Shown here: positions 59,411-64,000 of the stretch, piece by piece | Layout of the letters: every line of letters begins with the position of its first letter | Numbering within the stretch: position 1 is the first letter of the stretch | The notes under the pieces: generated by a model | What the model was told of the DNA's origin: nothing | Databases searched by the model: none | What the model saw: the letters and a program-made list of their open reading frames with translations, nothing else | From: Cellulomonas uda | GTDB lineage: Bacteria; Actinomycetota; Actinomycetes; Actinomycetales; Cellulomonadaceae | Direction: 5' to 3' | Length of the DNA: 64,000 nucleotides | NCBI RefSeq assembly: GCF_006538705.1 | Contig: NZ_BJLP01000001.1 | Coordinates: 1-64,000, forward strand | Program-made: the position numbers and the translations under genes

Positions 59411-60727
59411 ATGCCGGGATCCGCGGACCACCGACCCGGCGAGCCGCATTCCGCGCGTGACGGGGGCCCGGTGAGCGGCGCGCAGCCCGCGCTCGCGCGG
59501 CGGCTGGGCACGGGCGACGCGGTGGTCGTCGGGCTCGGGTCGATGATCGGCGCGGGCGTGTTCGCGGCGTTCGCACCCGCCGCGCGCGCCGCGGGGTCGG
59601 CGCTCCTCGTCGGGCTGCTCGTCGCGGCGGTCGTCGCGTACGCCAACGCGACCGCCTCCGCACAGCTCGCGGCGCAGTACCCCACGTCGGGCGGCACGTA
59701 CGTGTACGGCCGGGAGCGGCTCAGCCCCTGGTGGGGGTTCCTCGCGGGGTGGGGCTTCGTCATCGGGAAGACCGCGTCGTGCGCCGCGATGGCGCTCACG
59801 TTCGCCGCGTACGTCGCGCCGAACGCGCAGCGGCCCGTCGCGGCGGCCGCAGTGCTGCTCCTGACGGCCGTGAGCTACCGGGGGGTCACGCGCACCGCAC
59901 GGCTCGCGCGCGTCGTGGTGGCCGTGGTGCTCGTGGCGCTGACCGCGGTGGTCGTCGCGACGCTCGTCGGCGGCGACCCCGACTGGTCGCGCGTGGAGCC
60001 GTGGGGTGGGGCGAGCGGCGGCTGGTACGGGACGGTGCAGTCCGCGGGGCTGCTGTTCTTCGCGTTCGCGGGGTACGCGCGGGTCGCGACGCTCGGCGAG
60101 GAGGTGCGCGACCCGGCCCGGACCATCCCCCGGGCGATCCAGCTCGCGCTCGCGATCACGCTCGTCGTGTACGCGACCGTCGCCGTGACGCTGCTGGCGA
60201 CGTTGGGTGCCGACGGGACCGCTGCCTCGTCGGCGCCGGTGGCCGACGCCGCGGCGACCAGCGGGTGGGCGTGGACCGGTCCCGTCGTCCGCGTCGCGGG
60301 GGCGGCCGCGTCGCTCGGCGCGCTGCTCGCGCTCGTCGCGGGTGTGGGGCGCACGGGCCTGGCGATGGCGCGCGAGGGTGACCTGCCGCGCTGGCTGGCG
60401 GCCGTGCACCCGCGCTACCGCGTGCCGCACCGGGCGGAGGTCGCGCTCGCGGTGGTGGTGTGCGCGCTGGTGCTGACCGTGGACCTGCGCGGGGCGATCG
60501 GGTTCTCGTCGTTCGGGGTGCTGCTGTACTACCTCGTGGCGAACCTGGCCGCGTGGACGCAGCCGCGCGAGCACCGCCGGTTCCCGCGCGCGTGGCAGGT
60601 GGTCGGCGCGGTCGGCTGCACGGTGCTCGTCGTGACGCTCCCCGCGACGGCGGTGCTGGTCGGGGCGGCCGTGCTGGTCGTGGGCGTCGTGTGGCGGGCT
60701 GCGCGACGACGCGCGTCACGCGCCTGA
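59411..60727 (+). CDS. APC-superfamily amino acid permease
   Basis: 438 residues, 12 helices. Helix 1 signature GLGSMIGAGVFAAFAPAARAAG, conserved Gly/Pro pattern PTSGGTYVYGRERLSPWWGFLAGW and the helix-6 FFAFAGYARVATLGEEVRDPARTIPRA region are clear. An amino-acid or polyamine transporter. It overlaps the 3' end of the convergent P-type ATPase by 12 bases. Confidence 0.88.
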   Translation: MPGSADHRPGEPHSARDGGPVSGAQPALARRLGTGDAVVVGLGSMIGAGVFAAFAPAARAAGSALLVGLLVAAVVAYANATASAQLAAQYPTSGGTYVYGRERLSPWWGFLAGWGFVIGKTASCAAMALTFAAYVAPNAQRPVAAAAVLLLTAVSYRGVTRTARLARVVVAVVLVALTAVVVATLVGGDPDWSRVEPWGGASGGWYGTVQSAGLLFFAFAGYARVATLGEEVRDPARTIPRAIQLALAITLVVYATVAVTLLATLGADGTAASSAPVADAAATSGWAWTGPVVRVAGAAASLGALLALVAGVGRTGLAMAREGDLPRWLAAVHPRYRVPHRAEVALAVVVCALVLTVDLRGAIGFSSFGVLLYYLVANLAAWTQPREHRRFPRAWQVVGAVGCTVLVVTLPATAVLVGAAVLVVGVVWRAARRRASRA

Positions 60728-62613
60728 GCGCACCCGCTCGTCCTCGCGCGGCGGCACGGGGGACGGCCCGGCCCCCGCGACCGCGGTCCGCTCGGCCCGG
60801 CTGGGCCGGACCGCGAGCAGCGCCCACAGGATCGTCGCGAGGTCCACGACCTCCTGCAGCCACGCGCCGGCCAGCGCCGGCAGCCGCCCGGCGGCCGCGA
60901 CGAGCATGAGCCCCACCGACATGACGAGGCCGATCCCGATCGACTGCCACGCGACGCGCAGCGTGCGCTGCCCCACCTGCACGGCACGTGCGGCGCGCGA
61001 CAGGTCGTCGACCATGACGACGACGTCGGCGGACTCCGAGGCCGCGCTCGAGCCGCGCGCGCCCATCGCGATCCCCACGTCCGCGGACGCGAGCACGGGG
61101 GCGTCGTTCACGCCGTCGCCGATCATGAGCACGGGGCGCAGCGGTGCCGTGCGGATCGCGGTGACCTTGTCCTGCGGCAGGAGCGCCGCTCGCACGTCGT
61201 CCACGCCGGCCTGCGCGGCGATGCGCCGGGCGACTGGCTCGCTGTCCCGGTGAGCATCATGGTGGTGCGCACGCCCGCCCGGTGCAGGGCGGCGATCGTG
61301 CCCGCGGCCTCGGGGCGCAGCTCGTCGGCCAGCGTGAGGTGACCGGCCGGCCGGCCGTCCACCGCGACGTGCACCCCCGTGCCGGCGCCGGGCTCGCTCG
61401 GCGTCGTCCCCGTCTCGTGCGCGACGAACCGCGCGCTGCCGACGACGACGACACGCCCGTCCACCGTCCCGCGCACTCCGTGCGCGGGCACCTCGAGCAC
61501 GTCGTCGGCGGCCGGGACCGCGCGCCCGGTGGCGCGAGCGTGCTCGACGACGGCCTGCGCGAGCGGGTGGCTCGAGTACTGCTCGACGGCCGCGGCGAGC
61601 AGCAGCAGCTCCTGCGGTGCGACGCCGTCGGCGTGCACGTCCGTCACGCGCGGCTGCCCGAACGTGAGCGTGCCGGTCTTGTCGAACGCGGCCGTCCGGG
61701 CGCGCGCGAGCTGCTCGAGCGTCCCGCTGGACTTCACGATGACGCCCGCGCGGGCGGCGCGTGACATGCCGCCGAGGAACGCGACGGGTGCCGCGATGAT
61801 CAGCGGGCACGGCGTCGCCACGACGAGGACCTCGGCGATGCGGGCGGGCTCGCCGGACACGAGCCACGCGGCGACCGCGAGGCCGAGCGCGAAGAGCGTG
61901 AACGGCACCGCCACGCGGTCCGCGAGCCGGACGAACGGCGCCTTGGAGTCCTGCGCCTCACGGACGAGGGCGACGATGCGCTGGTACTGCGAGTCGGCCG
62001 CGAGCGCCGTGGCGCGCAGGTCGAGCGCCTCGCCGCCGTTGACCGCACCCGAGAGCAGCTCGTCGCCCTGCACGTGGTCGACGGGCAGCGACTCACCCGT
62101 CAGCGACGACTCGTCGAGCGTCGCGCGGTCCGACTCCAGCACGCCGTCGACGGGCACGACCTCGAACGGCCGCACGACGAGCACGTCACCCACCGCGACC
62201 TCGTCGACCGGCACCTCGGTGACCGAGCCGTCGGCGTCCTTGCGGCGTGCGGTGCGGGGCGCGTTCTGCAGCAGACCCGTGAGCTCGCGGCGCGCGCGGC
62301 CGGCCGCGTAGTCCTCGAGCGCCTCGCCGCCGCTGAGCATGAGGCACACGACGAGCGCGGCCCAGTACTCGCCGACCGCCACGGTCGAGACGATCGCCGT
62401 GACGGCGAGCAGGTCCACGCCGTACCGGCCCGCGCGCAGGTCGGCGACCATGCCCCGCGCCTGGATCCCCGCGACGACGAGAGCGAACGCGGACACGACC
62501 ACCTGCGCGGCACCGGGCAGCCCGGCGGCCTCGAGCACACCGCCGACCGACCCGACCACGAGGGTGGCGAGCACGACGGGGTAGGCGACCAGGCGCCCGA
62601 GGACGGTGCGCAT
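60716..62613 (-). pseudogene. Heavy-metal P1B-type ATPase with a one-base frameshift
   Basis: From ATG 62613: two N-terminal helices without an HMA domain, actuator loop LDESSLTGESLPVDH, transmembrane metal motif ATPCPLII, phosphorylation site AAFDKTGTLTFGQP and HP locus YSSHPLAQAV. At 61246-61248 the frame breaks after MMLTG: ggg aca where ggg gac is needed, so one G is missing from a run. The rest (DSEPVARRIAAQAG, VLMIGDGVNDAPVLASADVG, C-terminal helices) continues in the next frame to 60716. Either a natural loss of function or a sequencing error. TACAAG six bases before the ATG fits the start. Confidence 0.8.
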
Positions 62614-62659
62614 GATCCACTTGTACGCCCGACGCGCCGGTCCCGGCCACGTTGGACAG

Positions 62660-62693
62660 GCTCGCCTGACCTCGCGCGGGCGGTCAGGCGAGC
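62660..62693 (-). terminator. Terminator after the CsoR/CstR-type gene
   Basis: GCTCGCCTGACC and GGTCAGGCGAGC form a perfect 12-bp stem with a 10-base loop, overlapping the repressor's stop codon. Confidence 0.75.
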
Positions 62694-62956
62694 GAGAGGA
62701 ACAGCTTCTCGAGCTTCGCGACGTCCAGGGTGGGCGCCTCGTCGGCGTCGTCGGGCTGCGTGAGGCACTGCCGCATGCCGGACGCGATGATCGCGAAGCC
62801 GGCGCGGTCGAGCGCACGCGACACGGCCGACAGCTGCGTGACGACGTCCTCGCAGCCCTTGCCTTCGTCGAGCATGCGGATGACGGCGGCGAGCTGGCCC
62901 TGCGCGCGCTTGAGCCGGTTGCTGACCTTGGTCATCTCGGTGGGGTCGAGGTCCAC
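62684..62956 (-). CDS. CsoR/FrmR-family metal- or persulfide-responsive repressor
   Basis: 90 residues, all helical (DUF156). Core RLKRAQGQLAAVIRMLDEGKGCED. Two cysteines are at the family positions, C35 and C64 (GMRQC), but the residue aligned with the CsoR copper-ligand His (four before the second Cys) is Gly60. Two cysteines without that His is the CstR arrangement, which senses sulfane sulfur. AGGAGG precedes GTG 62956. The next genes upstream on this strand include a rhodanese fusion, which fits. Confidence 0.88.
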   Translation of the reverse strand: MDLDPTEMTKVSNRLKRAQGQLAAVIRMLDEGKGCEDVVTQLSAVSRALDRAGFAIIASGMRQCLTQPDDADEAPTLDVAKLEKLFLSLA

Positions 62957-62978
62957 GGTTCCTCCTGGGTCGGGGGTG

Positions 62979-63110
62979 TCAGGCGCGGGAGGTCGCCTGG
63001 CACGTGCACTGCTGATCCTGGGGCACGCCGGCCATGACGTCGTCGACGTGCATGCCGCAGCCGGTCCAGGTGACCTTGCCGCAGCGGGGGCACAGAGCGG
63101 GGCTGCACAT
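62979..63110 (-). CDS. 43-residue Cys-rich small protein (zinc-ribbon-like)
   Basis: ATG 63110, behind GAAGGAG, encodes a protein starting MCSPALCPRCGKVTWTGCG and ending QQCTCQATSRA; cysteines in two CxxC/CxC groups plus a His suggest a metal site. Too short for the usual length cut-off but the ribosome site and composition support it. It sits between the repressor and the rhodanese fusion, likely co-transcribed. Confidence 0.8.
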   Translation of the reverse strand: MCSPALCPRCGKVTWTGCGMHVDDVMAGVPQDQQCTCQATSRA

Positions 63111-63145
63111 GGTGGTACTCCTTCAGAGGGGTCGGGTTCAGGGGG

Positions 63146-64000
63146 TCAGCGGGTGGGGGTGAGGTCGGGGCGGGCGGTCGTCAGGCTGATCCAGCCGCCG
63201 GACAGGTTGCTCGCGTCGAACCCCGACTGCACCAGGACGCGCGTCGCGATGTTCGAGCGGACGCCGCTCGCGCAGTGCACGGCCACGTGCCGGCCCGCGG
63301 CCGCCTCACGCACCTCGTCGAGCCGCTCGCGCAGCTCGGTGTGCGGGATGTTGAGCGCGTCCGCGAGGTGACCGCGCGCGAACTCGGCGCGCGAGCGCAC
63401 GTCGAGCACGAGGCTGGAGGCGAGCACGTCGTCCAGCTCGGTGGGGTGCCACTGCGGCAGGGTGCCGTCGAGCACGTTCTGCGCGACGAACCCGAGCATG
63501 TTGACCGGGTCCTTCGCGGAGCCGTAGGGCGGCGCGTACGCGAGCTCGAGCTCGGCGAGGTCGTCGGCGGTCATGCCGGCGCGCAGCGCGGTCGCGAGCA
63601 CGTCGATGCGCTTGTCGACGCCGTCACGGCCGACGGCCTGGGCCCCGAGGAGCCGCCCGTCGGGTGCAAAGCTCGCGACGACGTGCACCTGCTCGGCACC
63701 CGGGAAGTACCCGGCGTGGTGCCCGGCGTGCGTGCGGACCACCTCGTGCGGGATGCCCGCGCGCTGCAGCGTCGCCTGGCTCGCGCCCGTCACCGCGGCC
63801 GTGAGCCCGAACACGCGCACGATCGCGGTGCCGAGCACGGACGCCTGCGGCGTGGTGCGGTGGCCGAGCATCGAGTCGGCCGCGCGGCGGCCCTGGCGGT
63901 TCGCGGGGCCCGCGAGCGGCACGGGGCCGGTCAGGCCGGTGACCGCCTGGACCACCTCGACCGCGTCGCCGACCGCCCAGATGTGCGGGTCGGAGGTGCG
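63146..64000 (-). CDS. CoA-disulfide-reductase-like FAD oxidoreductase fused to rhodanese (partial)
   Basis: The 5' end lies beyond the window; 284 codons are visible, ending at the stop. The first part (IWAVGDAVEVVQAVTG, PLAGPANRQGRRAADSMLG) is the NAD/FAD disulfide-reductase domain and its dimer domain (HAGHHAGYFPGAEQ, GRDGVDKRIDVLATAL); the last 90 residues are a rhodanese (DVRSRAEFARGHLADALNIPH) with active-site loop CASGVRS and catalytic Cys. Enzymes of this CDR-RHD type reduce persulfides and polysulfides. Frame open to the window end. Confidence 0.88.
   Translation of the reverse strand, partial: RTSDPHIWAVGDAVEVVQAVTGLTGPVPLAGPANRQGRRAADSMLGHRTTPQASVLGTAIVRVFGLTAAVTGASQATLQRAGIPHEVVRTHAGHHAGYFPGAEQVHVVASFAPDGRLLGAQAVGRDGVDKRIDVLATALRAGMTADDLAELELAYAPPYGSAKDPVNMLGFVAQNVLDGTLPQWHPTELDDVLASSLVLDVRSRAEFARGHLADALNIPHTELRERLDEVREAAAGRHVAVHCASGVRSNIATRVLVQSGFDASNLSGGWISLTTARPDLTPTR

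Follow-up and report, generated by a model that had tools for sequence, protein, structure and literature searches.

The cst operon of Staphylococcus comprises cstR, cstA, cstB, and sqr, and fusion enzymes of the NPSR/CoAPR type reduce persulfides. In Streptomyces coelicolor, the repressor ScCsoR (SCO0620), whose operator is ATACCn6GGTAT, represses persulfide dioxygenase (PDO), TauE, rhodanese, and itself; polysulfide persulfidates its Cys37, Cys66 is also required, and the circuit, SCO0618-SCO0621, is derepressed by sulfane sulfur (PMC7533328). An Archaeoglobus enzyme of the NPSR/CoAPR type is the stated subject of a further paper (PMC7969121). The locus that we describe here, from Cellulomonas uda, resembles the ScCsoR circuit in having a repressor with two cysteines and no histidine, a 16-bp ATACCn6GGTAT operator, and predicted control of sulfane-sulfur disposal genes and a rhodanese, but differs from it in that the Streptomyces circuit carries persulfide dioxygenase and TauE, whereas the operon described here carries a reductive CoADR-rhodanese fusion. 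From sequence comparison, we consider it likely, with good confidence, that this unit is a persulfide (sulfane-sulfur) detoxification operon.

The repressor and the CoADR-rhodanese fusion

The window (i.e. the whole stretch of DNA that was analyzed) covers the initial 64 kb of a contig of 148 kb, in a genome of 3.56 Mb. The genes considered here are as follows.

60716..62619, minus strand: P1B-type ATPase, frameshifted near 61246; its membership of the unit is not conserved
62684..62956, minus strand: repressor of the CsoR/DUF156 family, 90 amino acids, GTG start, C35/G60/C64; assigned by PF02583, the tree, and ligand positions
62979..63110, minus strand: 43-amino acid Cys-rich protein (C2, C7xxC10, C18xxH21, C35xC37) of an unnamed family; assigned by alignment
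63146-64849, minus strand, cut by the window end at 64000: CoADR-rhodanese fusion (NPSR/CoAPR type), 567 amino acids; assigned by Cys52/Cys526

On the minus strand, the CoADR-rhodanese gene comes first; a gap of 35 bp separates it from the 43-codon gene, and one of 22 bp lies between this gene and the 90-codon repressor gene. The close order on one strand that the sequence-only reading had described extends over 62684-64849. By sequence, all three are genuine genes, given the PF02583 match of the repressor (80 bits against a curated cutoff of 22.8, which places it in the CsoR/RcnR DUF156 family), the match of the fusion to the solved structure 3nta (E 1.8e-151), and the conservation of the small protein across dozens of genomes. 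The P1B-type ATPase starts 64 bp 3' of the repressor on the same strand, and we rejected it as a member of the unit because no closely similar ATPase adjoins the repressor in relatives. Its frame break is a one-base frameshift within a short G run, and the gene is either a pseudogene or the victim of a sequencing error.

With the NCBIfam RicR model, the repressor scores 42.2 bits against a cutoff of 175 and so falls outside RicR. When aligned with solved and named CsoR-family proteins, its ligand positions read C35/G60/C64, in agreement with the sequence-only reading, compared with C-H-C in copper CsoRs, C-H-H in RcnR, C-H-T in FrmR, and C-N-C in Firmicutes CstR; the position of the copper-binding histidine is Gly60 here and is G, A, S, T, or N across its clade. 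We note that Salinibacterium metalliresistens carries two repressor paralogues ~1.1 kb apart, one with Thr for Gly60, and several operators. In a maximum-likelihood tree built on 89 columns, so few that many inner forks are unsettled, the window repressor lies within a 34-row actinobacterial clade (support 100/99) that is separate from copper CsoR, RcnR, FrmR, InrS, and Firmicutes CstR, and the CstR proteins of S. cohnii and S. pneumoniae do not group with it. Clustering with copper CsoR proteins, which had been named beforehand as the outcome that would count against a persulfide sensor, was not seen; only the second CsoR-family protein of this genome groups with the copper CsoR of S. lividans. 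The closest proteins, by sequence comparison as well as in the tree, are from Cellulomonas, and the nearest solved structure is 7mq1. Entries 7mq1, 7mq2, and 7mq3 were deposited as "copper-sensing" CsoR, a label that can mislead annotation.

The repressor is 59% identical to a Streptomyces-like ortholog with C37/C66 encoded next to PDO, TauE, and rhodanese, and large genomes of the same class, which we take for Streptomyces because of their size and gene order and which were picked by the operator alone, have a repressor with cysteines at 37 and 66 beside the same three genes. By these sequence comparisons, the CHARACTERISED relative nearest to the window repressor is the sulfane-sulfur sensor ScCsoR (SCO0620) of S. 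coelicolor, and we conclude that the repressor is an ortholog of this actinobacterial sensor rather than of Firmicutes CstR. The earlier description as "CstR-like" therefore holds as a mode of working but fails as a lineage. The Staphylococcus CstR is likewise a dithiol persulfide sensor of the CsoR family with a residue other than histidine (Asn) at the third position and, in the S. cohnii plasmid copy, has the same 16-bp operator spacing, but it sits on another branch of the tree, is 44% identical over 61 residues, and has other effectors.

The fusion enzyme contains Pyr_redox_2, dimerization, and rhodanese domains with both catalytic cysteines, which places it with enzymes of the NPSR/CoAPR type. 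Its closest solved structures are the NPSR of Shewanella loihica (3nta) and the CoA-persulfide reductase 8a56, and with these and the Bacillus CoADR-Rhd (3icr) it shares the fused architecture. Cys52 of the CoADR part and Cys526 of the rhodanese loop (CASGVRS) align with both cysteines of NPSR, which confirms the prior description of a disulfide reductase ending in a rhodanese. It differs from these enzymes in being the lead gene of an actinobacterial operon under predicted repressor control. Because its score with the NCBIfam CoA-disulfide reductase equivalog TIGR03385 (403.9) is below the cutoff of 578.8, the thiol partner may be CoA or another thiol; mycothiol is used alongside CoA in actinobacteria. 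We infer that the enzyme would reduce a low-molecular-weight persulfide.

The operator at the promoter and across genomes

The following sites bear on the regulation of the operon.

Contig 64859-64874, 10 bp before the CoADR ATG and just past the window end: perfect palindrome ATACCCCCGGGGGTAT, 16 bp, ATACCn6GGTAT
Contig 87453-88450, plus strand: second operon, in which a 16-bp operator precedes the genes for thioredoxin, a tailed paralogue of the 43-amino acid protein, and a rhodanese lipoprotein
Contig C15, 21680: fourth operator-like site ATACCACCGGGGGTAT, preceding a response-regulator/histidine-kinase pair

The pattern ATACCn6GGTAT occurs at four sites in the 3.56-Mb genome and the reversed-pattern control at none. 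Two of the four, 64859-64874 and 87453-87468, are 16-bp operators of the ScCsoR type at putative target promoters, whereas the site at C2:48976 is probably a chance match that, by eye, resembles the start of a tRNA. The operator at the promoter, together with the separate clade of the repressor, supports the persulfide-sensor reading that had been made from the letters of the DNA. The second operon lies ~23 kb from the first on the same contig and, judging from its operator, is probably also controlled by the window repressor; each of the host's two sulfur operons under a 16-bp operator thus encodes a copy of the small protein.

The 6-base spacer proved constant, with 114 such sites, none with a spacer of five or seven bases, and no control sites at 80 repressor loci in named genomes. 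At 37 loci chosen for the small protein alone, we found 26 operator sites where a Markov model predicted 0, and the operator was absent from 20 random regions of the same genomes. The second CsoR-family protein of the genome, which reads C-H-C, is encoded next to genes for an HMA protein and for a P-ATPase of the Cu type and is 35% identical to the window repressor in an alignment of only 54 residues. At its locus the operator is 17 bp long with a 7-base spacer, compared with 16 bp and six bases at the sulfur operators; few copper loci underlie this contrast, the 7-base spacer having been seen in this genome, in Arthrobacter agilis, and weakly in Streptomyces longwoodensis. We consider it possible that spacer length is a rule that keeps the paralogous repressors apart. 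The copper CsoR/RicR proteins of S. lividans (4adz) and Mycobacterium tuberculosis (2hh7) share the fold family and the general operator type with the window repressor but differ from it in the C-H-C ligands, the Cu-ATPase neighbors, and, at the copper-linked loci that we examined, an operator of 17 bp.

We profiled 200 genomes of the bacterial family, calling the repressor present at a best match of <= 1e-16 (above which there was a clear gap up to ~1e-9), using the stricter operator string ATACCCn4GGGTAT, and tallying the tables by hand. The operator was found in 137 of the 149 genomes with the repressor, the exact string being missing in the other 12, but in only 3 of the 51 without it (Fisher 5e-31, shared ancestry ignored). 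Within the genus, the figures were 41 of 41 and 0 of 19, again ignoring shared ancestry. The small protein followed the same distribution, being present in 143/149 genomes with the repressor and 8/51 without (Fisher 6e-29, with shared ancestry ignored here as well).

The 43-residue protein and its family

That the small Cys-rich gene noted from the sequence encodes a conserved protein is borne out by a 23-row alignment, in which C2, C7, C10, T14, W15, G17, C18, G19, H21, and C35 are invariant. The family motif is M-C-x4-C-x2-C-(G)-K-x-T-W-x-G-C-G-x-H-x3-V, ending further on in C-x-C or C-x-G-H, and members have ~38-75 residues, often with a C-terminal tail ending in FLxRLFGR; the window member lacks the tail, and its paralogue in the second operon has it. 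The Pfam, NCBIfam, and PHROGs models leave all 23 members without a credible assignment, and the 43-residue protein shows no sequence relationship to a solved structure. Its AlphaFold model, of moderate confidence (pLDDT 72), shows a hairpin that carries the CxxC and a helix that begins with C18xxH21; this predicted arrangement resembles a treble clef and leaves Cys2 and the CxC unused. Because a fold search with this model gave no match at E < 1 and no VIA match at Z >= 2, a zinc-finger reading draws solely on the cysteine and histidine spacing and the predicted hairpin and helix. The pN/pS of the gene, 0.62, is weak, a result to be expected where GC content is very high and third positions are constrained, and the argument for conservation is therefore carried by the residues that are invariant across the phylum. 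The gene, which lies downstream of CoADR, has its own Shine-Dalgarno-like site, and the family also has stand-alone copies.

Members of the family occur in 151 of the 200 family genomes, in 24 of 25 sampled genera of the bacterial family, and in 36 of 296 phylum genomes. They were not found in the large Streptomyces-like genomes of the same class in the phylum sample, which is a further difference from the ScCsoR circuit. Among the plasmid records listed, all matches to the small protein are actinobacterial, and at most of these places no gene is listed in a gene table that is, by its own statement, incomplete. By sequence, the family was thus found only in Actinomycetota within the phylum genomes and the plasmid records listed. 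A contig labeled Vibrio cholerae 35D (WNZI01000054.1) carries a cluster typical of Arthrobacter, and contamination or mislabeling probably accounts for the label.

We drew 37 small-protein copies from the phylum irrespective of operator or neighbors; the 3 kb upstream contained an operator for 20 of them and none for 17. A gene for a CsoR-family protein, PDO, TauE, or CoADR lay within 7 kb in 18/37 of these loci compared with 2/20 random stretches of the same genomes. Full-length CoADR adjoins the small protein in seven loci of the phylum sample and full-length PDO in five, never both, which indicates that the small protein accompanies whichever disposal route the host has. Further, in five or six distant Actinomycetota genomes, the last two bases of the operator are the first two of the small-protein ATG, which suggests leaderless transcripts that would be repressed right at their start. 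The regulation of the small protein, its companions, and its phylogenetic profile together point to sulfane-sulfur handling, and we regard its membership of the sulfane-sulfur regulon as very probable.

Alternative readings and a proposed mechanism

It is very improbable that the unit is a copper-responsive CsoR operon, in which a Cu(I)-sensing repressor would have the downstream P-type ATPase as its effector, even though the repressor shares the PF02583 family, a metal P-type ATPase follows after 64 bp on the same strand, and the nearest structure, 7mq1, is labeled "copper-sensing." The companion entry of that structure, 7MQ2, is presented in a review as the structure of the persulfide sensor CstR (PMC9774590), and the ATPase is frameshifted and not kept beside the repressor in relatives. 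Further, the histidine ligand is replaced by Gly60 and by other non-histidine residues across the clade, and the genome has a separate CsoR with a 17-bp operator beside HMA and Cu-type ATPase genes. We rejected copper regulation of the operon on the basis of the ligand, the tree, and the operator spacing.

Two other readings concern the small open reading frame. Polycysteine leaderless ORFs of mycobacteria act as attenuators, and the 43-residue ORF, which is short, Cys-rich, and within a sulfur operon and which in distant genomes seems to start without a leader at the operator, could likewise be a cis-acting cysteine-sensing leader peptide (attenuator) and not a working protein. We think this improbable: residues other than cysteine are conserved (T14, W15, G17, G19, H21, and V25), there is no terminal run of cysteines, and the ORF, placed 3' of CoADR, has a Shine-Dalgarno-like site to itself. 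Stand-alone copies and the paralogue in the second operon, as well as the additional C-terminal tail ending in LFGR in many relatives, argue in the same direction, and on the conserved residues, the tail, and the stand-alone copies, we rejected this role. It is doubtful, but conceivable, that the protein is a zinc store, a zinc chaperone, or a small zinc-finger regulator that is connected with sulfur only indirectly (for example, through polysulfide stripping zinc from proteins). The CxxC and CxxH spacing, the predicted hairpin and helix resembling a treble clef, and the C-terminal exchange of CxC for CxGH, which is typical of metal ligands, would fit such a role, whereas the constant companions of the small protein are persulfide enzymes, and an unsystematic look at its neighborhoods revealed no zinc-transport or Zur-type genes. 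Our own reading, which we offer tentatively, is that of a small zinc-stabilized thiol protein that would accept or buffer sulfane sulfur upstream of the host's disposal enzyme, both the zinc binding and the carrier role being predictions.

For the persulfide detoxification operon as a whole, we propose that, at rest, the 90-residue repressor would bind the 16-bp palindrome that overlies the promoter and so keep the CoADR-rhodanese gene, the 43-codon gene, and its own gene off; binding to this operator and autoregulation are both predicted from sequence. When sulfane sulfur rises, Cys35 would be persulfidated or joined to Cys64, and the repressor would leave the DNA, a release that we infer from orthology to ScCsoR, where it has been shown experimentally. 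The CoADR-rhodanese would then turn persulfides of CoA or other thiols into H2S with NAD(P)H, while the 43-residue protein may take up or buffer sulfane sulfur upstream of this enzyme. The operon at 87453, with its thioredoxin, 43-residue paralogue, and rhodanese lipoprotein, would be switched by the same repressor.

The sensor type, the operator, and the enzyme are of known kinds, and the main novelty is the family of the 43-residue protein, which is conserved and without a model in the libraries searched. In the open-access literature searched, we found neither this family nor a Cellulomonas-type operon that pairs CoADR-rhodanese with a ScCsoR-type sensor, nor the contrast of 16- and 17-bp operators inside one genome. 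The family may, as a tentative proposal, represent undescribed sulfane-sulfur carriers or buffers of Actinomycetota that are induced through ScCsoR-type control and serve either a reductive (CoADR-rhodanese) or an oxidative (PDO) route. If the rule of 16 bp for sulfur and 17 bp for copper is true, it would explain how two related repressors that share a cell act on separate targets, and the persulfide regulon would be readable from genome sequence.
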